DNA of 38,965 nt, taken from contig JAMFSN010000151.1 in the NCBI GenBank assembly GCA_026225295.1, positions 1-38,965 of the forward strand, read 5' to 3'. Position 1 is the first letter of the stretch. Each line of letters opens with the position of its first letter. This DNA comes from Frankia alni (GTDB lineage Bacteria > Actinomycetota > Actinomycetes > Frankiales > Frankiaceae). Positions 13,858 to 28,966 of this stretch are shown piece after piece. The notes beneath the pieces are model-generated. The model made no database searches and was not told the DNA's origin. It saw nothing but the letters and a program-made list of their open reading frames with translations. The position numbers and the translations under genes were made by a program.

Positions 13858-13898
13858 CCGGTTGGAATGTCCGCGCGCGTCGTCGGTCGGGCGGGCCG

Positions 13899-14360: not shown

Positions 14361-14432
14361 GAGTAATGACGTAACTGCTTGACGTGATATGAACGGTGGT
14401 GACAACGGAGTCGACTCCCGTCTGGGGCTGCC

Positions 14433-15506
14433 GTGCCGTTTGCTTTCGCAACCGTTCGTGATGGCCCCTCCTATGGAGGTCAGTTCCTCGCCCTGGCCGG
14501 ACTGCTCGCGCTGATCGGCGTGGTCGCGGCCCGCAGCGCGACCCGGCAGGCCCGGGCCACGCGGCCCGGGGCGGCCCGCCGGGGCTGGACCGGCCTGGCC
14601 GCCGTCGCCGTCGGCGGGACCACCGTCTGGGCCGCCCACCTCATCGACGTCGTCGGCTGGTGCCCGGCGGCGACCGGTTCGTTCGACCCGGCCGGTGCGG
14701 CCTTGTCGTTGTCGGTGGCGGTCGCGGCCGCGGTCGGAGGCCTGGCCGTCGCGGGAAGCGGCCCTACCGGCCCGGCCCGGGTCGCGACCGGCGCCGCTCT
14801 CTTCGGCACGGGGGCGTGGACGGCGGACGTGGTGGGCCCGGGCGCCATGGCCCTGGCCGGGGCGTCCCATCCCCGTCCCCTGGCGGCGTTGCCCGCGCTC
14901 GCCCCGGCCCTCGGGGCGGCGTTGATCTCCCTGCTGGTGGTGCTGCGGGGAGCGGGCGGCGGGTGGGCGACGGTCGGTGTGGTCGTCAGTGCCGGCGCGT
15001 GGACGGCGACCCACCTGATGGCGGCCGCGAGCGGCGCTCCGCGGGCGGCCGGCGGTGGTCCCCGGCTGACCAGCGTGTCCTCCACCTACGGACTCGTGCT
15101 GGTGGCGGTGGTGCTGCTGGCCGTGGCGGTCGTCATGGCCATCATCGTCGGGGCCGTGACGGACGACCGGGCGCGCGCTCCCGCTCAGCCGCGGACGGCT
15201 CGGCGGCAACTCGCTCCGGCGCACCGGCCGCCGGACCGGGCCGTCCTCGAGGGCCCCCGGTTCCCGGCCCGGCTCGGCCGTTCCGCGCCCGAGCCGTCCG
15301 GCGTGCCCGCCCGGTCCGCCGTGCCCGCCCGCTACGCCGTGCCCGCCCGCGAACCGGTCCCTTTTCCGGCCCGCTACTTCGAGATGGACACCGTCGAACT
15401 GCCGACCACCGCGGGTCCGGCCGCCCGCCCATCGACCGGCGGCCCGCGACGCGGGGGTCGGCGCTGGTACCGGATCCGTCCGTACGCCGACCACCGCTAC
15501 CGATAG
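14433..15506 (+). CDS. Membrane protein with degenerate MHYT-like repeats
   Basis: A 357-residue protein with about seven membrane helices followed by a cytoplasmic Pro/Arg-rich tail. Three spaced segments, GGTTVWAAHLIDVVGW, GTGAWTADVVGPGAMA and SAGAWTATHLMAAAS, line up with the three MHYT motifs of the MHYT sensor domain (normally W-x-MHF and AxMHYTGM), but most of the Met/His/Tyr metal ligands are replaced. No GGDEF, EAL or kinase domain is attached. The tail includes tandem VPAR(S/Y/E) units at about residues 290-308. GTG 14433 is the first suitable start. The MHYT relationship is inferred from spacing. Confidence 0.7.
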   Translation: MPFAFATVRDGPSYGGQFLALAGLLALIGVVAARSATRQARATRPGAARRGWTGLAAVAVGGTTVWAAHLIDVVGWCPAATGSFDPAGAALSLSVAVAAAVGGLAVAGSGPTGPARVATGAALFGTGAWTADVVGPGAMALAGASHPRPLAALPALAPALGAALISLLVVLRGAGGGWATVGVVVSAGAWTATHLMAAASGAPRAAGGGPRLTSVSSTYGLVLVAVVLLAVAVVMAIIVGAVTDDRARAPAQPRTARRQLAPAHRPPDRAVLEGPRFPARLGRSAPEPSGVPARSAVPARYAVPAREPVPFPARYFEMDTVELPTTAGPAARPSTGGPRRGGRRWYRIRPYADHRYR

Positions 15507-15599
15507 CAGTGGTTGACCGTCCGTTCCAACCTCGCGGGGCTGTGAGGTGACGCACAACGCGGGGTCGTCCGGCGGCAAGATCGACGATCGTCCCCAGCT

Positions 15600-16400
15600 G
15601 TGCCGAGCTTCCGCGTCGACGACGGCGTCGTCATCCACTACGAGCAATGGGCGGGCGGGCCGGCGGCCGCTCCGGCCGGCCCCACCGGCCCGCCGGTCCT
15701 GCTGCATCACGGTTTCGTGGCCGACCACACGAGCAACTGGGTCCGCACCGGGTTCGTGGGCGCGCTGGTCGCCGCCGGCCGCGACGTCGTCGCCCTCGAC
15801 GCCCGCGGGCACGGCCGGTCCGACAAGCCCCACTCCCCGTCATCGTACGGCGAGCACCGGATGGCCCAGGATCTGTCGATGCTGGCCGACGTGCTCGGCC
15901 TTGAGCAGTTCGACCTGGTCGGATATTCGATGGGCGCGGTCGTGTCGCTGCTGGTCGCGACGACGCCTGACCCCCGGTTGCGCCGACTGGCGGTCGGCGG
16001 GGTGGGCGCCGGGGTGGGCGCCGGGGTGCTGCGGTTCGGCGGCGTCGACCGGTCCGTCCTGGAGCCGGGGCTCGTCGCCGGGGCGCTGCTCACCGAGGAC
16101 GTCACCACCATCACGGACCCGGCCGCGGCCCGGTTCCGGGCGTTCGCCGACGTGACGGGGGCCGACCGCTTCGCGCTGAGCGCCCACCTGCGGGCCGTCC
16201 GCGATCAGTCGGTGGCGCTCGACCGCATCGCGGTGCCGACCCTGCTGTTCGTGGGCACCGCGGACGACCTGGCCACGGAGCCGGGGCAACTGGTCGACGC
16301 GATTCCCGGGGCCCGACTCGTGGAGTTCGACGGCGACCACCTGTCGGTGCTCGGCGACCCGAAGCTGACCGGGACGGTCGTCGCCTTCCTCGCCGAGTAA
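15600..16400 (+). CDS. Alpha/beta hydrolase
   Basis: A 266-residue alpha/beta-hydrolase-fold enzyme. The nucleophile elbow is GYSMGA with Ser110, the oxyanion region is HHGF (36-39), the acid is probably in GTADDLAT and the histidine lies in EFDGDHLSVL. The DARGHGRSDKP motif is typical of esterase, haloperoxidase and lipase-like members. The GTG start at 15600 is the first in-frame start matching the family N-terminus. The substrate is unknown. Confidence 0.87.
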   Translation: MPSFRVDDGVVIHYEQWAGGPAAAPAGPTGPPVLLHHGFVADHTSNWVRTGFVGALVAAGRDVVALDARGHGRSDKPHSPSSYGEHRMAQDLSMLADVLGLEQFDLVGYSMGAVVSLLVATTPDPRLRRLAVGGVGAGVGAGVLRFGGVDRSVLEPGLVAGALLTEDVTTITDPAAARFRAFADVTGADRFALSAHLRAVRDQSVALDRIAVPTLLFVGTADDLATEPGQLVDAIPGARLVEFDGDHLSVLGDPKLTGTVVAFLAE

Positions 16401-16503
16401 CCGGGTCGTTTACCCGGCGCCGGTTCGGACGGTCGCCGGGCCGGTTACCGTGGACGCTGCCGCGGTGGGGGCCATGGGTGGGGAACCGGGGGAGGTGGCC
16501 GCA

Positions 16504-18321
16504 GTGTCGTCCGTCGACCGGTCCAGCGCGCCGCCCGTCCGCCCCGATGACCGGCGCCCCGGCGATCTACGTTCCGACGATCTCGGACCGACCGGCTTAG
16601 CCACCGCCGAACTCGGCGACCTGCATGAGTTCGACGACCTGGACGATTTCGGCGACCTGGACGAGCTGTACGCCCTCGACGAGGTCGAGCGGCGGTACGG
16701 GATCGACGCCCGGGACGACTTCGACCCGGCTCCGCCGCGGCTGGGTCGGACGCGCCGATTCCTGGCTCTGGCCCTGTTGCCGGTCGCCCTGGGCTGGCAG
16801 CTCGCCCAGCCGTTCGCGGGCCGCATGGTACCGACCGCCCGGGGACTGGTCAGCGGCCTGCGGGCCCTGTTCCGCGCCGCTGTCTGGCCGCTGCGGGCGG
16901 CCCGCGGGGACGTCGTGGCCGCCTTCGCGACCCTGCGTTCGGCCGGGCGCGTCACCACGTCGTTCCTGGTCGTCGGGTTCGGTATCGCCGCCGGAGCGGT
17001 CCGGACGGCGGTGTGGACGATCACTTCCGCGGTCGCCGCCGGAGCCCAGGCGCTCGGCCCGTCCGCCCGGGTCGCGTGGGCCAGCGGGGTGTGGCTCGGC
17101 GAAGCCGGCCGCGGGTTCTCCTGGGCGTTGACGGCCCGGCTGCGGTCGGCCTCGGCCCGGCTGCGGGCCGCCGCCGGGCGCGCGCCGCTCCCGGCCCGGG
17201 TCGCGGGCCGGGGCCCGGTGGTCGTCGTCCGCGGCGGCGGCCGGGCCGGTGCGGCCTTGTGGCCGGGGGTGGAAGCCGGACTGCGGGTGGCCGGGGCGGT
17301 GGTGCTGGCCTTCCTGGGTCGGGCCCTGGTCCCGGCCCGTATCGGGAACCGGTTCGGAGCGGCCGGTTGGGGTGCGGTCGACCGGACCGGCGCCGCCGCG
17401 CGGGCCCGGACGGTGGCCGGCCTGCGCGCGTCGTCCCGGATCGCGCAGGCCGGCTTCCGGGTCGCGCTGCGGGGGTGCGATCCGCTGGCCCGGCTGGTCT
17501 GGCTCCTGGTGGCCACGGCCGGCCAGCTGGTCGCGGTGGTCGGGCGCGGCGCGTCGGCCGCGGCGCGGCTGACTTTCGCGGCGCTGCGCCAGCTCGGCCT
17601 GACGGTCGCCGCCGGGTTGCGGACCGCGGTGCGGGTCGGGGTGGCGAACGCCCGACCGGTCCTGCGGGCGGTCGGCGCCGCCGGCCGGCTGGCCATGCTG
17701 GCTCTGCGGGCCGGTCTCGCGCTGGCCAGCCGGGTGCTGGCCGTCGCCGGGCAGGGGCTGCGGGTCGGCGCGGCCGCCGGGCGACGGGTCTTCGGGATGG
17801 CCCTGGCCGCGGTGCGGCGGGCCTTCGTGGCCCTGACCGGCGGGCTGCGGATCGTGGCGCGGACGGCGGGCGCCGGGCCGCGGGCCGCAGCAGCTGGTGG
17901 GCGCCCGATCCTGGCCTGGACGCGGGGGGCCAGCCGGACGGCCCGCTACGGAACGGCCGCGATCACCCGACCGGTGCGTGGCTTCGCGCGGGGTTCGGGC
18001 CGGTACGCCGGACTGGGCGCCCGGTCCGGGCAGGCCCGGGGGCGGGTACTGGTCGTCCGGAGCGCGGGGGCCGGTGGGATCGTCGGCCGGTCGGCGTACG
18101 ACGCGGTCGCCCACGCCCGGCTCAGCGCGTCGGGACGGGTTGACCGCCGTCCGGTCCGATCGACGCCCTGGGCGAACCGGCGGCCGACCTCCGCGCCGAG
18201 CCGGGTTCCCGCGCCGCGCCCGGCGCTGGCGTCAAGGGTCGAGCCGCTGGCGGCGCCGGTCGATCAGCTGACCGGGCAGGTTGCTCAAGAACAACAGGAG
18301 CCACCAGTAACTGGCGAGTGA
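16504..18321 (+). CDS. Lysine-free Ala/Arg-rich amphipathic protein, unknown function
   Basis: A 605-residue protein of no recognised family. Residues about 20-77 are strongly acidic with repeated D-D-L/F-D-D-L units (for example LHEFDDLDDFGDLDELYALD). A hydrophobic stretch follows at about 86-104. Residues 105-560 are a long chain of Ala/Val/Leu/Gly-rich helical segments punctuated by Arg, each about 20-30 residues and often reading A-G-R/L-R-A. I see no lysine and only one cysteine. Third codon positions are almost all G or C, so this frame is probably real despite long antisense frames. GTG 16504 is chosen for GGAGGT at 16491-16496. Its 3' end overlaps the convergent TMEM175 gene by 90 bases. 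Confidence 0.65.
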   Translation: MSSVDRSSAPPVRPDDRRPGDLRSDDLGPTGLATAELGDLHEFDDLDDFGDLDELYALDEVERRYGIDARDDFDPAPPRLGRTRRFLALALLPVALGWQLAQPFAGRMVPTARGLVSGLRALFRAAVWPLRAARGDVVAAFATLRSAGRVTTSFLVVGFGIAAGAVRTAVWTITSAVAAGAQALGPSARVAWASGVWLGEAGRGFSWALTARLRSASARLRAAAGRAPLPARVAGRGPVVVVRGGGRAGAALWPGVEAGLRVAGAVVLAFLGRALVPARIGNRFGAAGWGAVDRTGAAARARTVAGLRASSRIAQAGFRVALRGCDPLARLVWLLVATAGQLVAVVGRGASAAARLTFAALRQLGLTVAAGLRTAVRVGVANARPVLRAVGAAGRLAMLALRAGLALASRVLAVAGQGLRVGAAAGRRVFGMALAAVRRAFVALTGGLRIVARTAGAGPRAAAAGGRPILAWTRGASRTARYGTAAITRPVRGFARGSGRYAGLGARSGQARGRVLVVRSAGAGGIVGRSAYDAVAHARLSASGRVDRRPVRSTPWANRRPTSAPSRVPAPRPALASRVEPLAAPVDQLTGQVAQEQQEPPVTGE

Positions 18322-18887
18322 CGTCGAGAGAAAAGCGATCCCGATGGACGACCCGGCGACGGCGAAGATCGTGCAACCCCGGGCCCGGGCCCGCGCCCAT
18401 TCCGGCCCGCTGTAGGGCGGCGTGAAGAGATTGCGTACGCGGGCGACGTAGCAAATCAATTCGATCGCCAGGCTGGCCAGCAGCAGATCGCCACCGAATA
18501 TCGCCGAGGCCAGCGGATTGTCGCTGTTGGTGCCGAGCATGTCCGCGAAGTACGGCATCAGCGAGATGGCGAACAGGAACACGAAATTGACCCAGGCCAC
18601 GCGGTCGTCGTGGGTACCGATCCTGCGCATCACCCGGTGATGGGCCCCCCAGTACTTCGCGGTGAGCCAGAACGCCAGCCGTAGGCGAGATACGACGCGC
18701 CCTGCTTGCCGATCTGGTGGGCCAGTGCGCCCGGTCCGGCGTGGTTGAGGTCGGGCACCTTGATGTTGAGCACCAGGAGCGTCATCGCGATGGCGATGAT
18801 GCCCTCCGAGAGCGTCACCACCCGGTCGATCGTTACGGCTAGCGGCTCCGGATCGTTCGTCATCCGGCAGGTCTCACAAACCGGCAT
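18232..18887 (-). pseudogene. TMEM175-family potassium channel gene with frameshift
   Basis: Two adjacent frames together encode a TMEM175 (DUF1211) family channel of about 217 residues. The first (18887 to about 18676) begins near MTNDPEPLAVTIDRVVTLSEG and contains the hallmark segment LSEGIIAIAMTLLVLNIKVP. The second gives FWLTAKYWGAHHRVMRRIG and the last membrane helices, ending at 18232. The frames join at about 18673-18681, where adding one base in GGCTGGCG would restore a continuous protein. It is either a true one-base deletion or a sequencing error; no slippery run is present. The family motif FSDG is LSEG here. The 3' end overlaps the convergent Ala/Arg-rich gene. Confidence 0.8.
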
Positions 18888-18933
18888 CCCTGTCGGCCCG
18901 GGACACGCGGCCGGTCAGGTCGGGCCAGAACGT

Positions 18934-18964
18934 TTGACCTTCCACCCGGGTTGAAGGTTTACGG
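18934..18964 (+). promoter_or_regulatory. MerR-type promoter and operator
   Basis: A -35 TTGACC (18934-18939) is followed by a 19-bp spacer (18940-18958) and a -10-like TTACGG (18959-18964). The long spacer is the signature of MerR-activated promoters. A 22-bp palindrome at 18937-18958 (ACCTTC ... GAAGGT, one mismatched pair) sits between the elements, as in known MerR, CueR and ZntR operators. Transcription would begin about 18971, next to GTG 18972, so the mRNA is probably leaderless. Confidence 0.75.
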
Positions 18965-18971
18965 TCGTTCC

Positions 18972-19676
18972 GTGGTCACCTACCGGATTTCCGAGCTCGC
19001 CGCGCGGACCGGCTTTTCGGCTTCGACGTTGCGGTACTACGAACGGCTCGGGCTGCTCTCGAGCGACCGGAGCCCGGCCGGCTACCGGCTGTACGGCGAC
19101 CGCCATGTCGCCCGGCTCGCTCTGGCCCGGCGCGCGAAGCGGCTGCGGCTGTCCCTCGCCGACATCGGCCGCCTGCTGCGGGACTGGGACAGCGGGCGCT
19201 GCGGGCCGGTTCAGGCGCGGCTGCGGCGGCTGGTCGACGCCCAGTCCCGCCAGGTCACCGAGCGGATCGCCGACCTACGGACGTTCGAGGCGGAGCTGGT
19301 CGAGACCCGGGCCGGGCTCGATCGGCCGACCCCGGCCGGCCCGTGCGACGACACCTGCGGCTGTGCCGCCGAGGCGGGTCCGGCGGCGGCGGTCGCCTGC
19401 ACGCTGACCGCCGCCGGCCGGGCCGACCGCGCCGCGACCTGGTCGACGCTGTTGGCCGCCGCGGCAACGCGCCGAACCACCGCGGCCGGGCTCCGGTTCA
19501 CCTTTCCCGCCGACCCGCTGTTGATTGGACAGCTCGCCGAACTGGCCGTGCGCGAACAGGAGTGCTGCCCATTCTTCAGCTTCGCGCTCGGCATCCACGC
19601 CGCCGACGTTTCCTTGACGGTGCAGGCGCCGCCGGATGCGTACCCACTGTTGGCCCAGGTGTTTCCCGCCGCCTAG
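18972..19676 (+). CDS. MerR-family metal-sensing regulator with extra C-terminal domain
   Basis: A 234-residue regulator. Residues 3-70 form the MerR winged helix (RISELAARTGFSASTLRYYE, then LGLLSSDRSPAGYRLY). Cys77 aligns with the conserved cysteine at the start of the dimerisation helix in ZntR/MerR metal sensors, and Cys125, Cys129 and Cys131 (PCDDTCGC) form a metal-loop-like cluster. A further domain of about 80 residues carries EQECCPFFSFALGI and VSLTVQAPPDAYPLL, recalled from other actinobacterial MerR proteins but not named. GTG 18972 is chosen because the operator occupies the upstream TTG 18951. It probably autoregulates; the metal and other targets are unknown. Confidence 0.88.
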   Translation: MVTYRISELAARTGFSASTLRYYERLGLLSSDRSPAGYRLYGDRHVARLALARRAKRLRLSLADIGRLLRDWDSGRCGPVQARLRRLVDAQSRQVTERIADLRTFEAELVETRAGLDRPTPAGPCDDTCGCAAEAGPAAAVACTLTAAGRADRAATWSTLLAAAATRRTTAAGLRFTFPADPLLIGQLAELAVREQECCPFFSFALGIHAADVSLTVQAPPDAYPLLAQVFPAA

Positions 19677-19710
19677 CGTTCCGCCGGCACCACATTCGCG
19701 GTCCGACCTG

Positions 19711-19941
19711 CTATTTTCGCTTCTTCTCGTCGATCCCGAGACCGCGCTCGTAGATGCGCCGCCCGACGCGCACCCGACGCCCTTTCCCCTCGCAGGAGCC
19801 GCACAGCCGCCACGCTTTTTTCGTCGGCGACGGTGACTTGCCCGTCCCGCCGCACGACTTGCAGGCGGCGAAGGGCCAGATTGCGCAGGCGCCGATCCAA
19901 CTGATGGCGAGGCCCAGCAATATCAAAATAAGCACTACCAC
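19711..19941 (-). CDS. Small membrane protein with two CxxCxGxG zinc motifs
   Basis: A 76-residue protein: one N-terminal transmembrane helix (residues 1-25, VVVLILILLGLAISWIG and following) and a cytoplasmic part with CKSCGGTG and CGSCEGKG, the DnaJ-type zinc-knuckle repeat, then a basic tail ending in EKKRK. GTG 19941 is preferred because GGGGGA precedes it and it removes an unlikely antisense extension through the EamA gene. Two knuckles can bind one zinc ion. Function unknown. Confidence 0.7.
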   Translation of the reverse strand: MVVLILILLGLAISWIGACAIWPFAACKSCGGTGKSPSPTKKAWRLCGSCEGKGRRVRVGRRIYERGLGIDEKKRK

Positions 19942-20002
19942 GAATCCCCCGATTCTCGTAGTCGAGTACGAGGCTAACGGTGGGAGATCTCGTTTACCGG
20001 TG

Positions 20003-20020
20003 AACGGGATCTTTCCCGTT
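20003..20020. promoter_or_regulatory. Perfect 7-bp inverted repeat upstream of the zinc-knuckle gene
   Basis: AACGGGA (20003-20009) and TCCCGTT (20014-20020) with a 4-base loop lie about 60 bases upstream of the zinc-knuckle gene start and 110 bases upstream of the divergent EamA gene. It may be an operator or a small 5' hairpin. Confidence 0.3.
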
Positions 20021-20131
20021 ATCTGACCATCTGTAATTGATCTAGTCCTCCGAGTCACCGGCGGTCGTAGCTGAGCGATAGGGGGCCGGGCGAAGCTGGA
20101 CCTCCGGGACAACCGTGCTGAGGCTGGGCTG

Positions 20132-21124
20132 GTGACCGCGACGGCTTCACCGGGCCGAATCCCCGCGAACCCCGGCGGCAGCCTCATCCCCGGCCCACGG
20201 GGCGCCGGGTCGGGCCGGGCCGCGCCGGCGCTCGCCGTCACGGTGGTCGTCTGGGCCAGCGCGTTTCCGGCGATCCGGGTGGCCGTCCCCGATCTCGGCG
20301 CGGCGGGGCTGTCGGTGGCCCGCCTGCTGGTCGCCTCGCTGACGCTGGCGGTGGTCGCGCCGTTCGTGGGACTGCGCCGGCCGGCGGCCCGGGACCTGCC
20401 GCTCATCGCCCTGTGCGGCCTGACCGGCATGACGGCCTACCAGCTGCTCCTGAATGAGGGGGAGGTGGTGGTGGCGGCCGGCGCCGCGAGTCTGCTGATC
20501 GCCACCGCGCCGGTCTACAGCGTGCTGATCGCCGCGGTGGTGCTCGGTGAACGGCTCACCGTGCGGCGCGGGGTCGGCAGCCTGATCGCGTTCGCCGGCT
20601 CGGGGCTGATCGCCGTCAGCCACGGCGGGCTCCATTTCGGCGTCGCCGCGCTGCTCGTCCTGGCCGCCGCGGCCGTCCAGGGGACCTATCACGCCGCGCA
20701 GAAGCCGCTGCTGGCCCGGTACACCGGTTTCGAGGTCACCACCTACGCGATGTGGGCGGGCACGCTGCTGATCCTGCCGTGGTCACCGGCGTTGGTGCAC
20801 CACCTGCCGCGGGCCGGGGTCGGCGCCTGGGCCGCGGTGGCCTTCCTGGGCGTCATCTGCTCGGCGCTGGGCTTCGTGAGCTGGGCCTACGCCGTGGCCC
20901 GGGTGGAGATCAGTTACGCGACGGCCTGCCTGTACCTGGTCCCCGCGGTCGCGCTGGTCATCGCGTTCGTCTGGCTGGGGGAGACGCCGACCCGGCTGGA
21001 ACTTCTCGGGGGCGGCGTCGCGCTGCTCGGGGTGATGGCCGCGAATACCGGTCGGCGTCCTGACCGGGGCGGACCGGCGGGCGCGGCGGAATCGGCCGGC
21101 CCTCCAGGGGCCACGACGAAGTGA
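20132..21124 (+). CDS. EamA/DMT-family transporter
   Basis: A 330-residue drug/metabolite transporter with ten predicted helices in two EamA repeats: the first from about residue 33 (VVVWASAFPAIRVAV) and the second from about 175. The motif VWLGETPTRLELLGGGVALLGV near the end is characteristic. GTG 20132 is the first in-frame start. Members export metabolites, amino acids or drugs; this one's substrate is unknown. Confidence 0.92.
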   Translation: MTATASPGRIPANPGGSLIPGPRGAGSGRAAPALAVTVVVWASAFPAIRVAVPDLGAAGLSVARLLVASLTLAVVAPFVGLRRPAARDLPLIALCGLTGMTAYQLLLNEGEVVVAAGAASLLIATAPVYSVLIAAVVLGERLTVRRGVGSLIAFAGSGLIAVSHGGLHFGVAALLVLAAAAVQGTYHAAQKPLLARYTGFEVTTYAMWAGTLLILPWSPALVHHLPRAGVGAWAAVAFLGVICSALGFVSWAYAVARVEISYATACLYLVPAVALVIAFVWLGETPTRLELLGGGVALLGVMAANTGRRPDRGGPAGAAESAGPPGATTK

Positions 21125-21157
21125 TCCCGGGTTACCTCGACCCCTCGGGAGCAGATC

Positions 21158-21400
21158 ATGACGATCCGGACGCACATCGGCGTGAACGTCGACGGCTTCA
21201 TCTCCACGCCGGACGGCCGGCCCGCGGTCCTACGGATGCCGACCTTCGCCGGGCGGAACTCCCACGGGATGCCGGAGTTCCTGGCCGGTTGCGGGCAAAC
21301 CTGTGCCGGCCGTGGCCCGGGTTGCGGGCCTTCGTTGTGACCAGCAGTCCATTGCCGACCACCGGGCTGCCGCACGGCCGCCGATATCGCGGCTGTGCGG
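21158..21400 (+). pseudogene. Dihydrofolate reductase/RibD-C family remnant
   Basis: The ATG at 21158, with GGGAG just upstream, starts TIRTHIGVNVDGFISTPDG and MPTFAGRNSHGMPEFLAGC, the N-terminus of a RibD C-terminal/dihydrofolate-reductase-like protein. After about residue 45 the frame leaves the family. In another frame, WPGLRAFVVTSSPLPTTGLP, a recognisable internal segment, follows from about 21310, with part of the gene missing between. The C-terminal two thirds are absent. The gene is broken by an internal deletion and truncation. Confidence 0.7.
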
Positions 21401-21445
21401 GGACCCGACGCCGTCGGACAGGCACCCGGTTTCCGGCAGGTTCGA

Positions 21446-21679
21446 TCATTCCTCGATCGAGCTGTCGCTGACCAACGGGACAGACATGTCGATGCTCGGC
21501 GCGGGGCTGGACGCATTCACCCACGGCATCTGAGCCCGGGCCTGGGTGGTTTGGAGCCATTGGGTATCGGCGATGTCGCGGCGCTCCTCGATGACTCGCA
21601 GAATGGTCAGCACAAATATGGAGCCGACCGCCAGGATCGTTGTCAACATCAGGGCAGCTAGTAAGAGTTTTTCGGCCAT
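21446..21679 (-). CDS. Small single-pass membrane protein
   Basis: A 77-residue protein with one transmembrane helix (about residues 4-27, LLLAALMLTTILAVGSIFVLTIL) and a hydrophilic C-terminus. GAGAAGG precedes ATG 21679 at good spacing. It lies 25 bases after the XRE regulator gene on the same strand and may be its partner. No family recognised. Confidence 0.6.
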   Translation of the reverse strand: MAEKLLLAALMLTTILAVGSIFVLTILRVIEERRDIADTQWLQTTQARAQMPWVNASSPAPSIDMSVPLVSDSSIEE

Positions 21680-21704
21680 GGGCTATCGCCTTCTCGATAA
21701 GTGT

Positions 21705-22286
21705 TCAATTGCGGGCCTCGCACGAGACTCGCTGGTTTTTGCGACGGGCGAGCAGCGACAGTTCCGCGATCCGCTTCTCGTCGGTAATTCCATAGCAGGC
21801 CAACAGGGCTTGCAGGTCGGTCCGGGAGACCGTGACCTCGCCGACTTCGATCCGGTGAATCTTTGATGCCGAACAGTCCATCGCGGCCGCGACGTCCTTC
21901 TGGGTCAGGTGGGCCCGTCGACGCTCCTCCTGCAGCTCGTCCCGCAGCTGCTCGATTTTGGCCGGCCCGGCGTCGGTGGCTCCCCGACTTAATGCGTCCT
22001 CCGTTTGTTGTTCCACCCAGAGCGCCTCTCTCTCGATTGTCCGTGGGGTGGGGACCAGCATCCGGGCCACATCCCACTGCCCGGTCAATTCGGCAACCGC
22101 CGACTGCCGCCTCTCGTCGCCAGGCTGCTGCTGTGCATCCAGCGTAAGCGCACCGATCTGGCGCTTTGGCCAGATGTCAAGGTGCTTCCAGCTATTGAGC
22201 GCTATATCTAGCTGGCGCTGGTCGGCTCGATTGATATCAGGTTTCAACACGTCGGGTCGGTGGGTGGCTGAGGGCTCTACGTCCAC
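21705..22286 (-). CDS. XRE-type helix-turn-helix protein lacking the DUF5753 domain
   Basis: The frame can encode 193 residues. The C-terminal 70 carry an XRE helix-turn-helix, LTQKDVAAAMDCSASKIHRIEVGEVTVSRTDLQALL, very like the N-terminal domain of the DUF5753 regulator at 22981-23862. The N-terminal 115 residues match nothing recognised, and the DUF5753 sensor domain is absent. The start is uncertain: GTG 22286 has no good ribosome-binding site and a later start such as Met76 is possible. It could be a stand-alone repressor or the remnant of a larger regulator. Confidence 0.6.
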   Translation of the reverse strand: MDVEPSATHRPDVLKPDINRADQRQLDIALNSWKHLDIWPKRQIGALTLDAQQQPGDERRQSAVAELTGQWDVARMLVPTPRTIEREALWVEQQTEDALSRGATDAGPAKIEQLRDELQEERRRAHLTQKDVAAAMDCSASKIHRIEVGEVTVSRTDLQALLACYGITDEKRIAELSLLARRKNQRVSCEARN

Positions 22287-22727
22287 CGGCCAACCACCGG
22301 TCGGGATTCGTCAGCGTGCCACAAGGCAGAGTGCGTCGTCGGGCGCGTACTCCCGCGGCCGTCCGCTGTCCAGATTCGTGGACAGCGCCGGGCCGCGGCG
22401 GCTACCGCGGTTCGGCAACCCAGCGCCTCCGAGACCGTCGTGTCTCCTCGAGGAAGGCCGGGCCTCGGCGGACGGAGGCGAAGGTCCCCGACACCGGGCT
22501 CGCGGTCACCGCCGCCGCCAGCCAGACTCGACGTGCGGTTCCGGGATCTTTGCGACAGTGTCGCGCGCACCATGTGCGGCCGGTGGGGGAAGAGGCAATA
22601 GTGTCGTTGGGTAGACCCAAAAATCTGCGGTGTTTTGCCCGAGGTTAGATCTTTAACACATATTGCTCGCTTCGGTGCCAAGCGTCTGACCCGCGTGAAC
22701 GGCGACTCGAGAGGAAGCATAACAGGC
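22287..22727. other. Intergenic region without a supported gene
   Basis: A 441-base gap between divergent genes. Open frames here have poor codon character and no ribosome-binding site. The last 80 bases are AT-richer, with TTAACACATATTGC around 22651-22664, likely the promoter area of the DUF397 gene. Confidence 0.5.
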
Positions 22728-22961
22728 ATGCGCAACGAAAACGAGAGCCGGCCGGAGCAATTCCTTTCCACCGATCACCTATCCTGGAGGAAAAGCAGCG
22801 CCAGTGGCACAGGAAACTGTGTGGAGGTCGCGCTCGCGGATACGTGGGTGTTTGTGCGGAACTCGCGGGATCCGCACGGAACGGTGGCGCGGTTCGCTCC
22901 ACCCGGCTGGGGCGCGTTTCTCTCAGGGGTCAGTCGTGGCGAGTTTGACCTGAGTTCGTAG
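22728..22961 (+). CDS. DUF397 protein
   Basis: A 77-residue member of DUF397, with LSWRKSSASGTGNCVEVALA, VRNSRDPHGTVARF and WGAFLSGVSRGEFDL, covering the whole short family. These proteins are typically encoded next to XRE-DUF5753 regulators in actinobacteria (WhiJ/AbaA-like and Scr1-Scr2 pairs). Here the partner converges from the opposite strand 20 bases away. ATG 22728 matches the usual length. The likely role is modulation of the regulator, by family analogy. Confidence 0.9.
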   Translation: MRNENESRPEQFLSTDHLSWRKSSASGTGNCVEVALADTWVFVRNSRDPHGTVARFAPPGWGAFLSGVSRGEFDLSS

Positions 22962-22980
22962 CAACACTGTCCCGGTTCGG

Positions 22981-23862
22981 TCAGAGGTCTCGCAGGCCTT
23001 CCTGCATTCGAGCCAGGAAAGCCGGAGTCTCGTCCGACGAGGTGATCTGCTCCAGTTGCCAGAAAACTCCCAGATAATTGACCGGTGTCATCTCGCTGCG
23101 CTCCTCCGGGGAGTTCTCGCGGATGAACAGCTCGCCGGTCGGGTTTTCGATGTACATCACGTCCTCGTCCTCCGGCTCCGGAAACTCGAATATCACGTAA
23201 GGAACGCGCAAGCGGGGATACATGCCGAGCTTGAACGACATGATTCGGATGGTGATGTTCGGCTGCTCGGCGCTTTCCTGGAGGTGGCGGATCTGTTGGC
23301 GCATCACCGCCGGATTTCCGACGATGCGGCTGATCACGGCCTCGTCCAGGATGAAGTGCGTATCGGGCGGATTCTCCCGGGTCAGCACCTCCTGCCGTTG
23401 CGTCCGAAGATCAACCAAGGCGTCGGTTCGCTGTGCTCCGTCGAACGCGGTGATGACGTTTCGGGCGTATTCCTCGGTCTGTAATAATCCGGGCACGAGC
23501 AGAGGTTCGAAGTTTCGGATGACCGAAGCCGACGACTCGCAGCCCAGGAACGAGATGTACTCCGGGGTCGCGACGTCCTTGTAAAGATTCCATCGCGGGG
23601 GCTCCCGGGATGCCCGGGCCGTGCTGACCAGGTTCTCAATTCTTTCCTGGTCGAGTTCGTAGTGATTCAGCAGCGCTCGAAGGTCGTTGGTGCTGATATT
23701 CACGGCGCCGGTCTCGATCCGGATCAACTTCGATGCCGACCAGTCCATTGCCGCGGCGACCTCGCGCTGGGTCTTGTCGCACGCCTCACGGGCATTGCGC
23801 AGTTCGCTCCGCAGGCGCCGGCGGTGGATCGTCGGATCTGGGCCCTGACTGATGTTCGGCAT
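22981..23862 (-). CDS. XRE-family regulator with DUF5753 domain
   Basis: A 293-residue regulator. The helix-turn-helix lies at about residues 16-72 (TQREVAAAMDWSASKLIRIE), followed by a DUF5753 sensor domain (about 105-285) with the hallmark LVPGLLQTEEYAR, the FILDEAVISRIVGNPAVMRQQ segment and the ENPTGELFIRE region. This is the WhiJ/Scr1 architecture. ATG 23862 is chosen because GAGG precedes it and the N-terminus then fits the family; the frame extends 25 codons further without similarity. It converges with the DUF397 gene. The target promoters are unknown. Confidence 0.92.
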   Translation of the reverse strand: MPNISQGPDPTIHRRRLRSELRNAREACDKTQREVAAAMDWSASKLIRIETGAVNISTNDLRALLNHYELDQERIENLVSTARASREPPRWNLYKDVATPEYISFLGCESSASVIRNFEPLLVPGLLQTEEYARNVITAFDGAQRTDALVDLRTQRQEVLTRENPPDTHFILDEAVISRIVGNPAVMRQQIRHLQESAEQPNITIRIMSFKLGMYPRLRVPYVIFEFPEPEDEDVMYIENPTGELFIRENSPEERSEMTPVNYLGVFWQLEQITSSDETPAFLARMQEGLRDL

Positions 23863-24542
23863 CCCTCGCACCTTCCTCTTTCTTCTTTCTGCAGCTTCAA
23901 GACCCCTGGGCGGTCGGTGTAGCCAGCAAACAGCCAACTGGCACCCAGCGAGGGTGCAAGGAGCCTAATCGATAGGTGTCGGATATGGTGCGCACTCACC
24001 GCTCTTTGTTGCCGCTCACGCTTACGGAGGCGGGCCGACGTGGCGCGTCGCGCACAAGACCCGAATTCCAATGAATGGGCGGACAGCGTCCGTATTGGCT
24101 ATAGGCGCGCCCTAGCGGTGCAGGTCGCAACGGTGCCTCGCCCCAGCGGCGCGCGCCCGTGGTCGGGAAACAGGATTCCGATATCACCCCGGATTTGAGA
24201 CCGAGGCAAAGTCGAAGCCCGGGCGGAAATCGGGAGAGTGCCGCCCCGGCTGGCCGGGGCGCGCGGGGCCCGGCAGTCCGCCTTCGCCAGCTCCCGTGGC
24301 TTCATCGGCGCGCGGCGAGGCTCCGTCCGGCCGCCCAGCCGCCGGCCGAGCCTGGTGGCCGGGGCCCTCGAAGCGGCGGGATCGACCCCTCTGGGTAGCG
24401 ACATCGAAGTCATGCGGTCCTCGATCGGCCGGCCGGTCGAGCCGACGTCACGAACCCGGAGAAAGTATTCCGTTGACGGCCGCGAGGCTCCGGGCCCATT
24501 CTTACGGCAGTCGCCACGGCCAGCCGGGAAGAGGAGGAAGAG
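23863..24542. other. Long region without a supported gene
   Basis: A 680-base region upstream of the small ORF and tRNA array. Open frames on both strands are Arg/Pro-rich, lack ribosome-binding sites and match nothing recognised. It contains the promoter of the XRE gene on the minus strand near 23863-23990 and probably the promoter of the 24543 ORF. Confidence 0.5.
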
Positions 24543-24659
24543 ATGCACAGCCAGGGCTGCACCTTCCGGTATCCCGGTCCCGAGCGAGATCACGCCGATG
24601 CCATGCGACCGCCGTGGCACCAGATCGGGAGTCCCCAGGCGGGCGTCCCTCTGACCTAG
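24543..24659 (+). CDS. 38-residue ORF with strong ribosome-binding site, unknown
   Basis: ATG 24543 is preceded by GAGGAGGAAG, a near-ideal ribosome-binding site. The reading frame of 38 codons (beginning MHSQGCTFRYPGPERDHADA) ends in TAG at 24657-24659, 18 bases before a Rho-independent terminator. It is hydrophilic, with one Cys and four His residues, and matches no family I know. The start, stop and terminator arrangement suggests a real transcription unit. Confidence 0.55.
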   Translation: MHSQGCTFRYPGPERDHADAMRPPWHQIGSPQAGVPLT

Positions 24660-24676
24660 ACGGTCACAGGACGTCG

Positions 24677-24716
24677 ACCGCCCAGGGAGTTTCCCTTCCC
24701 GTCGGGCGGTTTTTTC
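24677..24716 (+). terminator. Rho-independent terminator
   Basis: ACCGCCC (24677-24683) pairs with GGGCGGT (24704-24710) and is followed by a T-run (24710-24715). An inner AGGGA/TCCCT stem (24684-24688 with 24692-24696) extends it. It ends three bases before the tRNA-Trp gene, so it closes the small-ORF transcript just before the array. Confidence 0.85.
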
Positions 24717-24718
24717 GT

Positions 24719-24791
24719 GGGGGCGTAGCTCAACGGCCAGAGTAACGGTCTCCAAACCCGTGTGGTGGAGGTTCGAATCCTCCCGTCCCTG
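24719..24791 (+). tRNA. tRNA-Trp (CCA), weak acceptor stem
   Basis: A 73-base cloverleaf with anticodon loop CTCCAAA (anticodon CCA, U33 present) and a T-arm GGAGGTTCGAATCCTCC. The acceptor stem GGGGGCG/CGTCCCT has two G-U pairs and the top of the anticodon stem is mismatched. No CCA encoded. First gene of a six-tRNA array. Confidence 0.75.
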
Positions 24792-24934
24792 CTGGCACAG
24801 CCCCTTTCTCGGGGAGCGTTCGTTCGTTTCAAACTCCACAGTGGACATGAAAGGGTCGGGGCGCCAACCCTGGCCGAAATCGACGAAAGAGAAGATCGCA
24901 GGATCGGGATCGGGCCACGCCGGCGCACGATCGA

Positions 24935-25008
24935 GGGACCTTAGCTCATTGTGGGGGAGCGCCTTTTGTGCACACAGGAGGTGCGGGGTTCGAAACCGCG
25001 AGGTTCCG
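24935..25008 (+). tRNA. tRNA-Ala (TGC), degenerate anticodon arm
   Basis: The acceptor stem GGGACCT/AGGTTCC retains the G3-U70 pair that defines alanine identity. The D-arm is normal. The anticodon loop reads TGTGCAC, giving TGC, but position 33 is G instead of the near-universal U, one anticodon-stem pair is T-C, and one T-stem pair is mismatched. It is either a decaying gene or an unusual element-borne tRNA. Confidence 0.55.
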
Positions 25009-25010
25009 CT

Positions 25011-25087
25011 GTGACCGTAGCTTAATCTGGTAGAGCGCCACGTTGTGGGCGCGGTGGTTGCGGGTTCGACTCCCGCCGGTCACCCCA
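25011..25087 (+). tRNA. tRNA-His (GTG) with encoded CCA
   Basis: Acceptor GTGACCG/CGGTCAC, anticodon loop TTGTGGG (GTG), discriminator C as in tRNA-His, followed by CCA at 25085-25087. One A-C mismatch lies in the anticodon stem. It begins three bases after the tRNA-Ala gene. Confidence 0.8.
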
Positions 25088-25088
25088 A

Positions 25089-25161
25089 GCTGGCGTAGCC
25101 TAGCGGTTAGGGCGCCTCCCTGTCACGGAGGAGATCACGGGTTCGAATCCCGTCGTCAGCG
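25089..25161 (+). tRNA. tRNA-Asp (GTC)
   Basis: Well-formed cloverleaf: acceptor GCTGGCG/CGTCAGC, anticodon stem CCTCC/GGAGG with loop CTGTCAC (GTC), and T-arm CGGGTTCGAATCCCG. No mismatches other than G-U. No encoded CCA. Confidence 0.9.
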
Positions 25162-25172
25162 CGCATTGTCAC

Positions 25173-25246
25173 GGCTGGGTAGCTCAGTTGGTAGAGCAAC
25201 GGAACCATAATCCGTGCGGTCGAAGGTCCAAGTTCTTCTCCAGCCA
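25173..25246 (+). tRNA. tRNA-Met (CAT), C33 variant
   Basis: Acceptor GGCTGGG/TCCAGCC and D-arm are normal. The anticodon stem ACGGA/TCCGT encloses loop ACCATAA, giving CAT but with C at position 33. The T-loop reads TCCAAGT, departing from the usual TTCAAGT. This resembles an elongator (or tRNA-Ile2-like) CAT tRNA with altered invariant positions. Confidence 0.7.
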
Positions 25247-25315
25247 CGTCAGGTCCCGGCAGGTGGCCAGGCGGGGGTCGCGGCTCCGGATCCTGCGGTG
25301 CGGACGCACGGTCAC

Positions 25316-25397
25316 GCTGGTGTTGGGCAGGTGGTGAGCCCCGCGGTTTGTAACACCGTCGCCTTCGGGCAAGGAGGTTCGATTCCTCCCGCCAGCA
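25316..25397 (+). tRNA. tRNA-Tyr (GTA), class II
   Basis: An 82-base gene with acceptor GCTGGTG/CGCCAGC, D-stem GGGC/GCCC, anticodon stem GCGGT/ACCGT with loop TTGTAAC (GTA), an extra variable arm around GCCTTCGGGC, and T-arm GGAGGTTCGATTCCTCC. The long variable arm is right for bacterial tRNA-Tyr. Discriminator A; no CCA. Confidence 0.85.
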
Positions 25398-25429
25398 CGT
25401 ATGCCTTCGTCGAAGGGATCGGTATTATT

Positions 25430-25470
25430 GGAGGGTTGTCCGAGCTGGAAGGGACGCGCCCGCGATCATG
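25430..25470 (+). other. tRNA-Ser/Leu-like 5' fragment
   Basis: GGAGGGTTGTCCGAGCTGG and the following bases resemble the acceptor 5' strand and D-arm of a class II tRNA such as tRNA-Ser. No matching anticodon arm or 3' half could be folded downstream. It is probably a decayed last member of the array. Confidence 0.35.
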
Positions 25471-25475
25471 AGGGC

Positions 25476-26146
25476 AGATATGAAGCTCGGTATGAAGCAG
25501 AGCTCCCAGGAACGGTCCGAACTCCACAAACCGACCACGGAATGTGTCGAAACCCGCTGGTTCAAGCCCCGTCGCTGTAGATACCCCCGAAGGTTCCGTG
25601 TGTCCGCCGTCGGGCACTCCGAAGGCCGGCCAAGCGGTTCAGTCCTGGACTTGCGTGCGACGAGAGCCGCCAGAAAGCGGGGCACGTCTGCTTTGGCAGT
25701 GAGCTGCTCCGGTGTGGGCCACGGCCAGAACGGCGGCGGAAAATCCGACCGTTAATGCTTCCGGCGGTGATCAGTCGCTCACTCCTTCCCGGAAACATGG
25801 CCGCGCGGGTGTTGGCCCGATGGGCCGGCGTCGCCTGATGTCGAGCTGCGACGACGAGCTGGACGCCGGCTGCGCGAAGGTCGGCGGTTCCCAGGGCTTC
25901 CAAGCCTGGGTGGATGACTACGCGTTGAACGGCCAGCGGATCGGCTGCGGGTAGACGCCGGGCCTAGCGAGCTCCCCGGGTGATCCGCACCGAAGGTTCG
26001 TCCCGTTTTCCCCATCGACCGGGCGGATCTTCGACTACCCCGCAATGACGGTCCCGAGCCGGACACGAAAGGCTCGGGACGGCTGATCCGTTCCCGCGGG
26101 CATCGGTACGAGGGGTGGAGATGGGACGACCAGCGGGTGGGCGGGG
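25476..26146. other. Region with no firm gene; one possible 38-codon ORF
   Basis: The 670 bases between the tRNA array and the broken sigma gene lack a recognised gene. The only frame with protein-like character is ATG 25838 to TAG 25954 (38 residues, starting SSCDDELDAGCAKVGG and ending in DDYALNGQRIGCG), overlapping TGA of another short frame. It has no ribosome-binding site and no known match, so it is noted without a CDS call. Confidence 0.3.
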
Positions 26147-26738
26147 ATGAGCGACGAGGACCGCCGGCGCTTCGAAACGCTTTACGGCGCGACGTACCAC
26201 CAGCTCATGGGGTACGCCCTGCGTCGTACCGCCGACCCGGCCGACGCCGCCGACGTCGTCGCGGAGACGTTCCTGGTCGCGTGGCGGCGCATCGACGTCG
26301 TTCCGACCGGTGACGCCGCCCGGCTCTGGCTCTACGGGACGGCCCGCCGGATCCTGGCCAATCAACGCCGGGGGAGCCAGCGGCGGCTCGCGTTGGCCGA
26401 CCGGCTGCGCCAGGACCTCGCCGGCGTGGCGGCGGCGTTCGGGACCGCCTTCGGCGGACGGCCCGGACCAGCGAGCGATCGCGGCCGCATTTGCCCGGCT
26501 CAAACTGGCTGACCAGGAGGTTCTCGGCCTGGTGAGTTGGGAGTCGCTCGACCGCGGCCAGGTCGGCGTGGCGTTGGGGTGCAGTCGCGCGATGGTCGCG
26601 GTCCGCCTGCACCGCGCCCGCCGACGCTTCGCCGCCGAACTCGCGGAAGAAGGCATCTGGCCGCAATCGGTCCGGGTACGCGGACATGAATCGGTCGGAC
26701 GGGCGATCACCCGTCCCGGCCCGGAGGAGATCCGATGA
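26147..26738 (+). pseudogene. ECF sigma factor gene interrupted by a frameshift
   Basis: ATG 26147 starts a normal sigma region 2: RFETLYGATYHQLMGYALRR, then ADAADVVAETFLVAWRRID. Region 4 lies in a second frame from about 26455 to 26738: LKLADQEVLGLVSWESLDRGQVGVALGCSRAMVAVRLHRARRRF. The switch occurs around 26450-26470, consistent with a one-base insertion (or two-base loss). The second frame's stop overlaps the next gene's ATG by 4 bases (ATGA), as expected for the original operon. A sequencing error is possible; otherwise the sigma factor is inactive. Confidence 0.8.
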
Positions 26739-27739
26739 CCGGCGCGGCCGGCGGCCACGACCCGATCAGCACGTTCGTCCGGCGGGCGGCGGCGGTTCGT
26801 GACGAAGACCTGGTCTCCCAGGCCGATCCCAACACCCAGGAGGCCCTCATGCACGACATCACCACGAGCGCACGGTCCGCCGCGCACGGCGCGGCCGGGC
26901 GGGCCGAGAAAAAGTTCGCCCCGCCCCGGCACCCCCGCCGCGTCCGGCGCGGGCTGATCGCCGTCGTAGCGATCCTGGCCGTGGGCGGATCCGTCGCGGC
27001 GGGGTGGGCGGCGCTGCGCGGCTCGCCGCGGGAGCAGACAACGGTTGCGTGCGCGACCCCGGGCGGCACCTCGTACATCGACGCGGTGACCGGCGACCCG
27101 CTCGTCGACTGCGCCACCGCCTGGCAGCGCGAGACGGGGCACGAGCCGCCCACGTTGGTCGCCTACCGGACGGCCGGCGGCGGAGTCGTCGTCGTGCCCA
27201 AGGGATCGAAGGTGCCGGCGGACTACCGGCCGCTCGGGCGGACCTTCACGCAGGACAGCCGCCTCATCGAGCTGGCGGCCTCGCTCAACGACTGGATCGG
27301 CGGGCTGAACGCCCGGTGTAACTCCGGGCCCCAGTCCCGGGCGCTCGCCTCCCGGCACCTCAACCGCCTGGGGCTCACCGGCTGGACGCCGGTCTTCATC
27401 CAGCGATCCCCCGACGGTCGGTCCACCTGCGGTGACTACATCGGGCTCGACCACGTCAACCGACGCGTCCAACTGGGTTCGATGCCTGCCGCTGGCCCGT
27501 CGGCGCCCGACCGGCAGCTGAGGACTCTCGCCAACCGGCTCGGCGCGGAGTTCGCCACCGGGTGCCGGAAGCTCGACGACGCCGCCACCGAGGTCACGTC
27601 CGTCGCCACCCGCCTCGGGTTCAGTCCGGCGAGGAACGAGATCCAGGTCAACCAGGTACCCGACCCGAAGGCGGCGTGCACGCGGATCGACATGGCCGTG
27701 GGCGGGACGGCGTCGGTGACCCTGCGCGGGCCGAAGTGA
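26735..27739 (+). CDS. Single-pass membrane protein, sigma-factor partner
   Basis: A 334-residue protein with a cytoplasmic N-terminus, one transmembrane helix at about residues 73-94 (LIAVVAILAVGGSVAAGWAAL), and an exported C-terminal domain with seven or so cysteines, suggesting disulfides. Early residues include RRAAAVRDEDLVSQADPNTQ, a short helical segment typical of proteins paired with actinobacterial ECF sigma factors. ATG 26735 overlaps the sigma gene's stop. Intact here although the sigma gene is broken. An anti-sigma or sensor role is inferred. Confidence 0.8.
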   Translation: MTGAAGGHDPISTFVRRAAAVRDEDLVSQADPNTQEALMHDITTSARSAAHGAAGRAEKKFAPPRHPRRVRRGLIAVVAILAVGGSVAAGWAALRGSPREQTTVACATPGGTSYIDAVTGDPLVDCATAWQRETGHEPPTLVAYRTAGGGVVVVPKGSKVPADYRPLGRTFTQDSRLIELAASLNDWIGGLNARCNSGPQSRALASRHLNRLGLTGWTPVFIQRSPDGRSTCGDYIGLDHVNRRVQLGSMPAAGPSAPDRQLRTLANRLGAEFATGCRKLDDAATEVTSVATRLGFSPARNEIQVNQVPDPKAACTRIDMAVGGTASVTLRGPK

Positions 27740-27759
27740 GGTAGCGACCAGCGATTCAG

Positions 27760-27784
27760 GGGGTCCGCGCACACAGCGGGCCCC
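27760..27784 (+). terminator. Hairpin terminator
   Basis: GGGGTCCGC (27760-27768) pairs with GCGGGCCCC (27776-27784) over 9 bp (one T-G) with a 7-base loop, 20 bases after the membrane-protein stop. Only TT follows. Confidence 0.6.
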
Positions 27785-27915
27785 TTGAGCGCGGGTGAAC
27801 CCTCGCTGTCGGCCAGACGGTCCCATCCTTCCTCGCGCTCGGTCGACGAGAGCTGACGCTCAGCGTGTCCAGGTTGTACGGCCTGGAAATCGGTGGCCGC
27901 GTCGCCCGCAGACGG

Positions 27916-28401
27916 TCAGTCCGTGAAGCTGCCGGTCAGGTCGGCGGTGTTGGTGCTGCCGGGTGAGCCCGCACCCGCGGTCTGCGTTACCAGCTTCCCG
28001 TCCACCGTGCCCGTCGCGGACAGTGTTCCGCCGTTGTACCGCATGGTCAGCCCCCATTCGTGGCGTCCGGTGCCGTACGGGACCGTGACCGTCTTACGCC
28101 AGGGTGGTTTCACCGCCTTCTCCTCGCTGACCTTCCCGTCGAGCGTAAACGTGAGGGAGAGGGTGGCCGTGCCGGTCGCGTCCAGCTCGAGGAGGTGGTG
28201 TTTCGGCGCCGGGCTCGAGGAGGTTGCCGCGGAGGTCTCCGGTGGCGTGGAGGTGGCCGGTGGCGCCGGTTTTCCGCACGCGAAGAGCAACCCCACCCCC
28301 ATCAGCGTGACGACGACTGTTCGGGTCACGGTTGGTAGCAGCCCGGCGATGCGCGGGACGGGCTCCGCGAACGATCGCCTGGGACAAGATCGGAAGACCA
28401 T
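27916..28401 (-). CDS. MmpS-like secreted lipoprotein
   Basis: A 161-residue protein. A hydrophobic segment ends in LLFAC (Cys42 from ATG 28401; GTG 28329 is an alternative start giving an 18-residue signal peptide), so it is probably a lipoprotein. After a Pro/Ser/Thr-rich linker, the domain LELDATGTATLSLTFTLDGK, PPWRKTVTVPYGTG and ATGTVDGKLVTQ resembles the beta-sandwich domain of mycobacterial MmpS proteins. MmpS proteins normally work with MmpL transporters; none is nearby. Confidence 0.75.
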   Translation of the reverse strand: MVFRSCPRRSFAEPVPRIAGLLPTVTRTVVVTLMGVGLLFACGKPAPPATSTPPETSAATSSSPAPKHHLLELDATGTATLSLTFTLDGKVSEEKAVKPPWRKTVTVPYGTGRHEWGLTMRYNGGTLSATGTVDGKLVTQTAGAGSPGSTNTADLTGSFTD

Positions 28402-28966
28402 AGCGGCAGACGTTACAGAGAAAACCGGCGCACCGGCCCGAAGTGGGCGTAACCGGTCAACAGAGTCCGAGTTCGTCGCATCCCGGCCCTAAAGGACCAT
28501 TTCGCTCCGAAGCTCAAAGAGCCGAAGCCGTTGTTTGCAACGCGCCGTTTTCACCTCCTGGGGGGAGCACGTTCCGACACTTTCGTCATCGTTCCCCAGC
28601 GATGACCCGTTGCCGGGCTCCTATGAGCTGCATCTGCCCTCGGACAACGTGACCATCTGGTACATGGTGACGCCAAAGCGAGACCGCATTCGCCACGCTG
28701 AACTGCGACGAGTTACGACCGAACCGCGCGCCATCGCGCTCCAGGACCGAAGGAAGGACGACGTCGGACTTGGGAAACACCCAGCCATCAAATCGAACGG
28801 TGACGTTCGGGACGGACCAGGCCGCGAAAGCCGACCAGATCAACTTGGTCACGTACTGGTCGCGACCAACGGCAACGAACGGAGACCAACGAACATGAAC
28901 GGGTGACCGTGGTCCGGGCCTCTCGACCCGGAAACGCCTGGCATCACAGGGATATCGGAGGAAAAG
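28402..28966. other. Region with no firm gene; possible degraded ORF
   Basis: The 565 bases before tRNA-Ser hold one weakly protein-like frame on the plus strand (about 28535-28906), containing LPGSYELHLPSDNVTIWYMV and PKRDRIRHAELRRV. This is vaguely like a small toxin-type fold, but there is no clear start or ribosome-binding site and GC at third positions is poor. It may be a decayed gene. Confidence 0.25.

Follow-up and report, generated by a model that had tools for sequence, protein, structure and literature searches.

Introduction

tRNA array units have been described on Mycobacterium chromosomes, plasmids and phages (PMC5966550; PMC6515697; PMC12803027) and are defined as groups of at least 20 tRNAs at a density of at least 2 per kb (PMC5966550). 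They have been called a putative antidefence system, and their purpose and the timing of their expression were stated as unknown (PMC12803027). A text search of PMC5966550 and PMC12803027 revealed no discussion of a promoter, terminator or attenuator of the arrays. For the anticodon-nuclease-insensitive tRNAs of C1 mycobacteriophages, a role against anticodon nucleases has been described (PMC10264068). In the leaders of rRNA (rrn) operons of E. coli and mycobacteria, boxes of the boxA/boxC type bind the Nus antitermination complex (PMC6614801; PMC5676007).

Descriptions exist of tRNA arrays, of attenuators and of rrn boxes separately; a search of the open-access literature found no paper joining the three. 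Here, we analyzed a 38,965-nucleotide stretch of Frankia alni DNA, referred to below as the window, in which an initial annotation had recognized a compact cluster of tRNA genes. That annotation contained neither the status of the cluster as a remnant of an array of 21–27 tRNAs, nor the upstream head with its leader ORF and terminator, nor the box behind tRNA-Trp. The window holds the remnant of a large array, and we consider it probable that such arrays are tRNA banks, inducible by stalled translation, under the control of attenuation and Nus antitermination.

Results

Array tRNA genes and their counterparts in the host genome

The window is one contig (C218) of a 5.78-Mb genome assembled in 412 contigs, the sole member of its genus among 35 family genomes. 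ARAGORN and the Rfam tRNA model confirmed the six annotated tRNA genes, all located on the plus strand. The first array gene, tRNA-Trp(CCA) (24719..24792, 59.2 bits), is followed by tRNA-Ala(TGC) (24935..25009), tRNA-His(GTG) (25011..25087, 58.6 bits), tRNA-Asp(GTC) (25089..25162, 70.8 bits), tRNA-Met(CAT), which may also be Ile2-like (25173..25247, 48.3 bits), and tRNA-Tyr(GTA) (25316..25398, 45.9 bits). The oddities ascribed to two of these genes were found as described: the degenerate tRNA-Ala combines G33 and a T-C mismatch in the anticodon stem with a G3-U70 pair and falls short of the Rfam tRNA cut-off of 29 bits, and tRNA-Met has C33 and an altered T-loop. As in the nuclease-insensitive tRNAs of C1 mycobacteriophages, these anticodon-loop changes occur in tRNAs of the tRNA-rich array type; in the phage tRNAs, however, the changes lie at the nuclease sites, whereas those in tRNA-Ala and tRNA-Met of the window look like decay. 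The tRNA-like fragment of the annotation (25430..25463, plus strand) proved to be nucleotides 1–35 of an array tRNA-Ser(gct), 88.6% identical and truncated at the anticodon stem. The CCA end noted in the His gene is indeed encoded, but it is nothing special: CCA is likewise part of the host's second His gene and of several further tRNA genes in this genome.

Genome-wide, 53 tRNAs were found. Trp, Ala(TGC), His, Met and Tyr are copied outside the array, and most array members duplicate better-scoring host genes. The assembly contains no Asp gene outside the array and no Phe gene at all. At each of 11 loci examined in relatives, these two genes are direct neighbors, and an assembly gap is the most likely reason why the housekeeping Asp-Phe pair is missing here. 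Another contig of the same assembly (C115) carries three copies of about 45 nt of the tRNA-Phe 3′ end (2872–2924, 6100–6145 and 7207–7251; L276–L278) without the rest of the gene, which resemble the leftovers of integrative elements at tRNA-Phe and make an assembly break at Asp-Phe plausible. In view of these copies and of the pairing in all 11 loci, replacement of the housekeeping Asp by the array Asp was rejected in favor of the gap. The window Asp is a sound gene of the array type, with 60/74 matches to array Asp versus 55–56/74 to housekeeping Asp.

Remnant of a larger colinear array

A DNA search of the family identified homologous stretches in four of the eight genomes of a Pseudofrankia-type genus (g7); most family genomes have no array. 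The four arrays (L078–L081) comprise 21–27 tRNAs in one order, Trp-Pro-Arg-Gly-Thr-Thr-Gly-Phe-Gln-Ile-Leu-Glu-(Ser)-Lys-Met-(Asn)-Ala-His-Ala-Asp-Val-(Arg)-Arg-Tyr-(Arg)-Leu-Ser/Leu. The window retains Trp, Ala, His, Asp, Tyr and the 5′ half of Ser(gct), the tRNA that ends the relatives' arrays, in this same order, and the others are lost. The window tRNA-Trp and the leading tRNA of each relative's array are 77–78% identical, and tRNA-Tyr is 80% identical to the array Tyr of L080. Homology also takes in about 50 nt in front of tRNA-Trp and 80 nt behind it, covering leader, Trp gene and spacer. The window tRNA-Ala(TGC) is evidently a descendant of the array Ala(CGC). tRNA-Met is out of place in the order and has no clear counterpart in the relatives' arrays; its derivation from a mutated Val gene was unsupported by alignment.

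Given this colinearity, the sequences identify the six-gene cluster as what deletions have left of an actinobacterial tRNA array unit, and not as a designed set of six. With published units, the arrays share dense packing on one strand, coverage of nearly all amino acids, duplication of the host set, deviant anticodon domains and occurrence on plasmids and phages; the kinship that the initial annotation had suggested with arrays of actinobacterial plasmids and phages was thus right. In size, the window, with six tRNAs and a fragment, lies below the published minimum of 20, which the relatives pass with 21–27; its density, six tRNAs in 0.68 kb, is within the definition. In this genome, the array has lost about three quarters of its tRNAs, Ala and Ser are ruined and the head is intact. 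The description of the set as partly decaying therefore holds, and the remnant may be nearly functionless. Searches for this array in phage and plasmid records yielded only similarity of single tRNAs.

In the array of G032, a dispersed g7 repeat of about 118 bp (L079:2655–2773), present at many loci of that genus, is inserted between tRNA-Arg(gcg) and tRNA-Thr(cgt), at the place occupied by tRNA-Gly(tcc) in other arrays.

The neighborhood PmbA-TldD-...-sigma-...-DUF3817-tRNA-Ser is common to the relatives, and in the window the part from the sigma gene to tRNA-Ser is inverted. The distance from DUF3817 to tRNA-Ser is 2.4 kb in Frankia G003 versus 15 kb in the window, with the array inside, which indicates that the array sits in a genome-specific segment (13857–28966, adjoining tRNA-Ser(TGA)) and was moved or acquired. 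Neither an integrase nor an att repeat of tRNA-Ser flanking an island was seen around the array. The region had been described as gene-poor, in agreement with frame composition, and as flanked by broken genes, for which the only support is one sigma-factor gene split over two frames. In this sigma-70 family gene (26147–26738), regions 2 and 4 lie in different ORFs, through a frameshift or a sequencing error.

Head of the window array

Upstream of tRNA-Trp, the window contains the parts of a putative attenuator on the plus strand, and the relatives' arrays show the same head parts. A weak promoter candidate (24473..24502; TTGACG, 18 nt, CATTCT) was recognized by eye; a consensus scan found no promoter there, so it is kept as a candidate only. 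Homologous heads have TTGACA or TTGACG at the same place. A good ribosome-binding site, GAGGAGG (24531..24537), precedes a predicted leader ORF of 38 amino acids (24543..24659; MHSQGCTFRYPGPERDHADAMRPPWHQIGSPQAGVPLT*), behind which lies a predicted intrinsic terminator (24676..24715), consisting of GACCGCCC, a 20-nt loop and GGGCGGTT with six T. A ribosome-binding site with a short ORF thus stands before the terminator, and the terminator before the array genes. The hairpin is imperfect (score 16 versus a shuffle mean of 7, reached by 2 of 20 shuffles) and was missed, owing to its loop, by a generic terminator scanner that allows loops of at most 8 nt. It ends about 3–8 nt before tRNA-Trp, with the T run 3 nt before the gene. 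This leaves no room for anything in between, a promoter included, and array transcripts would therefore have to pass the hairpin.

An antiterminator was predicted at 24638..24682, where GGCGGGCGTCC pairs with GGACGTCGACCGCC and encloses the hairpin TGACC-TAGAC-GGTCA. In the folding model, this pairing would occupy the 5′ arm of the terminator. It is the minimum-energy fold of the window head, with a z of −2.65 for the whole region; tested alone as a duplex, the window pairing gave a z of 0.05, not above chance. The enclosed hairpin and the GGAC/GACCGCC pairing are conserved in the Frankiaceae arrays.

Leader-peptide attenuators, such as those of the trp operon type and the actinobacterial whiB7 leader, consist of a promoter, a ribosome-binding site, a short ORF and alternative antiterminator and terminator hairpins. 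Judged by sequence, the array heads have a ribosome-binding site, a short ORF and a terminator as well, along with a candidate promoter and a predicted antiterminator. Unlike those attenuators, they stand before a tRNA array, not before genes for biosynthesis or resistance, and contain single scattered Trp codons instead of a run.

An rRNA-type antitermination box behind tRNA-Trp

The spacer behind tRNA-Trp holds AACTCCACAGTGGA, which is nearly the Nus antitermination box of rRNA operons; by its likeness to rrn leaders, an rRNA-type box TTTCAAACTCCACAGTGGA was assigned to 24827..24845 (plus strand). Its exact core AACTCCACAGYGGA occurs once in the window genome and once in each array-bearing Frankiaceae relative, and is lacking in the array-less Frankiaceae genomes save for one match in G023, which has no tRNA nearby and was set aside as apparently due to chance. 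Frankiaceae rRNA operon leaders carry TTGAGAACTCAACAGCGTG about 205 nt before 16S. The array box and the rrn-leader box of the same family share the core TTGANAACTCNACAG and are identical at 15 of 17 bases, suggesting, as rrn boxes of this kind bind the Nus complex, that the array box is most likely a Nus site. In contrast to boxA/boxC of rrn leaders, it lies behind tRNA-Trp within a tRNA array, and a base is inserted or changed after AACTC. A second promoter (TTGACA) was also considered for this place and rejected, because no fitting −10 region was visible by eye and the rrn leaders explain the box better.

Recurrence of boxes and heads in other actinobacteria

Scanning with the 19-mer TTGAMAACTCCACAGYGGA yielded 62 loci in GTDB contigs (257 Gb), about 7–8 of which are expected by chance on arithmetic grounds, and three in IMG/VR. 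At 44 of these 65 loci, the box marks the start of a tRNA array, either by itself or right behind a tRNA-Trp gene. The box-led arrays belong to Micromonosporaceae, Streptosporangiaceae, Pseudonocardiaceae, Frankiaceae and one viral contig. At L141 and L198, tRNA-Trp-like genes with a T-T pair atop the anticodon stem, uncalled by ARAGORN, lie about 100 nt before the box.

The remaining 21 box loci have no tRNAs, and at some of them the box precedes integrases or other genes. Boxes were observed 100–340 nt before phage-type integrase genes in the regions of L184:4186 and L193:1648, and near a DUF2637 gene in L142; these three could be nut-like sites of actinobacterial integrative elements. At L154:5112 (Actinoplanes sp. 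NBRC 103695), a terminator-like hairpin and a box stand directly before a PHP-domain gene without an array, perhaps the same switch placed on a protein gene.

A terminator score of at least 18 was reached in 42 of 48 heads (mean 22.3 versus 7.3 in shuffles), a statistic that, like all those on heads, is optimistic because the related sequences are non-independent. The head sample was selected by the box; three further arrays identified through their homology (L133, L136 and L138) also have the head. A leader ORF preceded by a ribosome-binding site was found in 42 of the 43 terminator-bearing heads, and its stop codon always lies 14–25 nt before the terminator, where −75 to +12 was allowed. In many heads, only 8–30 nt separate the terminator from tRNA-Trp. 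Pairing of the leader end with the terminator 5′ arm exceeded that of shuffled sequences in the 43 heads as a group (mean z −1.43), an excess not seen for 64 control terminators taken from these loci (mean z −0.12).

The codon TGG occurs 51 times in the leader frame versus 21 and 15 times in the other frames, an excess that may come in part from the antiterminator strand. All 22 Trp-first arrays have a Trp codon in the leader, versus 13 of 20 others. The leader peptides show weak constraint at the amino-acid level (pN/pS 0.70), are equal in length in 13 of 13 compared pairs and differ greatly between genera; the RWR at the C-terminus of many of them may be no more than a by-product of the antiterminator strand. 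The head is absent in some arrays (L139, L202 and StAugustine, L272), and the M. alvei plasmid array has a box and no clear attenuator.

Phage arrays

In large IMG/VR contigs, tRNA-Trp or tRNA-Asn was found 100–170 nt before a box variant, with a leader ORF and a hairpin in several of them. A head of this kind is also present in the mycobacteriophages Myrna, Phabba and ScoobyDoobyDoo, where a leader peptide MFTTADTTRG.LERA.YRPWH.. precedes two conserved hairpins and then the array; their leaders show a 3-nt indel that preserves the frame. The first tRNA in the Phabba and Myrna arrays is not Trp. The PWH motif of these phages recalls RPPWHQ of the window leader and RQPWHS of a Nonomuraea plasmid leader.

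Discussion

The window array is a remnant, and the parts of its head recur, with conserved order and spacing, in other arrays. From these sequences, we infer a switch that would work as follows. The array would be made as one long untranslated transcript, whose head comprises promoter, leader peptide, terminator, often tRNA-Trp, the Nus box and then the other tRNAs. A ribosome that reaches the leader stop codon would mask the antiterminator's 5′ strand, allowing the terminator to form and keeping the array off. A ribosome that stalls earlier, through a shortage of charged tRNA (with Trp as the best candidate) or other causes, would let the antiterminator form and transcription read through into the array, and the Nus box would then carry the polymerase across some kb of untranslated DNA. 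The array could thus act as a reserve of tRNAs that becomes available when translation runs short of them, as under attack by tRNA-cleaving toxins, and so relieve the depletion. Resistance to such toxins, which the initial annotation had also raised, may be a role of the window array as well. That the actinobacterial and actinophage arrays in general form a class of inducible banks, in which a leader attenuator senses stalled translation (first of all a shortage of Trp-tRNA) and a Nus box aids the crossing, is in our estimate an evenly balanced proposition.

The terminator might instead end an ordinary small-protein gene located before an array that has its own promoter. Ordinary genes, too, have terminators 10–40 nt behind their stop codons, and the strong variation of the leader peptides among genera would suit such a gene; the short interval between terminator and tRNA-Trp in many heads, however, is too small for a promoter, the antiterminator pairing exceeds that of other terminators, and several actinobacterial families, as well as phages, share the arrangement, which makes this explanation improbable. 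A plain decaying genomic island, that is, an acquired array without present function whose head is a fossil of former regulation, has roughly an even chance of being the right description of the window. It agrees with the survival of six genes out of more than 20, with the subthreshold Ala and truncated Ser, and with the position in a 15-kb genome-specific segment by tRNA-Ser that spans 2.4 kb in Frankia G003; against it, Asp, Trp and His still score 58–71 bits, and the head retains its frame, ribosome-binding site and terminator.

Codon compensation for foreign genes, a frequent proposal for phage tRNAs (see PMC10264068 for discussion) and suggested by the initial annotation for this locus, found no support, as no result points to a missing host isoacceptor: except for Asp, where the assembly gap is the best explanation, each array tRNA has a better copy in the host, and intact arrays span nearly all amino acids and not rare codons. 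We regard it as very unlikely. A housekeeping cluster of the genus is more unlikely still and can practically be dismissed. The initial annotation had named sole copies conserved in all relatives as the mark of ordinary housekeeping genes; this does not fit Trp, Ala, His, Met and Tyr, which are duplicated. The array Asp is the single Asp gene of the assembly, but the housekeeping Asp-Phe pair has most likely fallen into an assembly gap. The array is absent from most family genomes, and the Asp itself is nearer to array Asp than to housekeeping Asp.

If the arrays are indeed stall-inducible tRNA banks, they would gain a trigger and a testable purpose. A conserved attenuator combined with an rRNA-type box predicts arrays that are silent in normal growth and switched on when translation stalls. 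The arrays of phages and plasmids would then be tied to tRNA-depleting defences by their regulation, beyond what sequence alone offers, and the window locus would be a fossil or half-fossil of such a tRNA bank.
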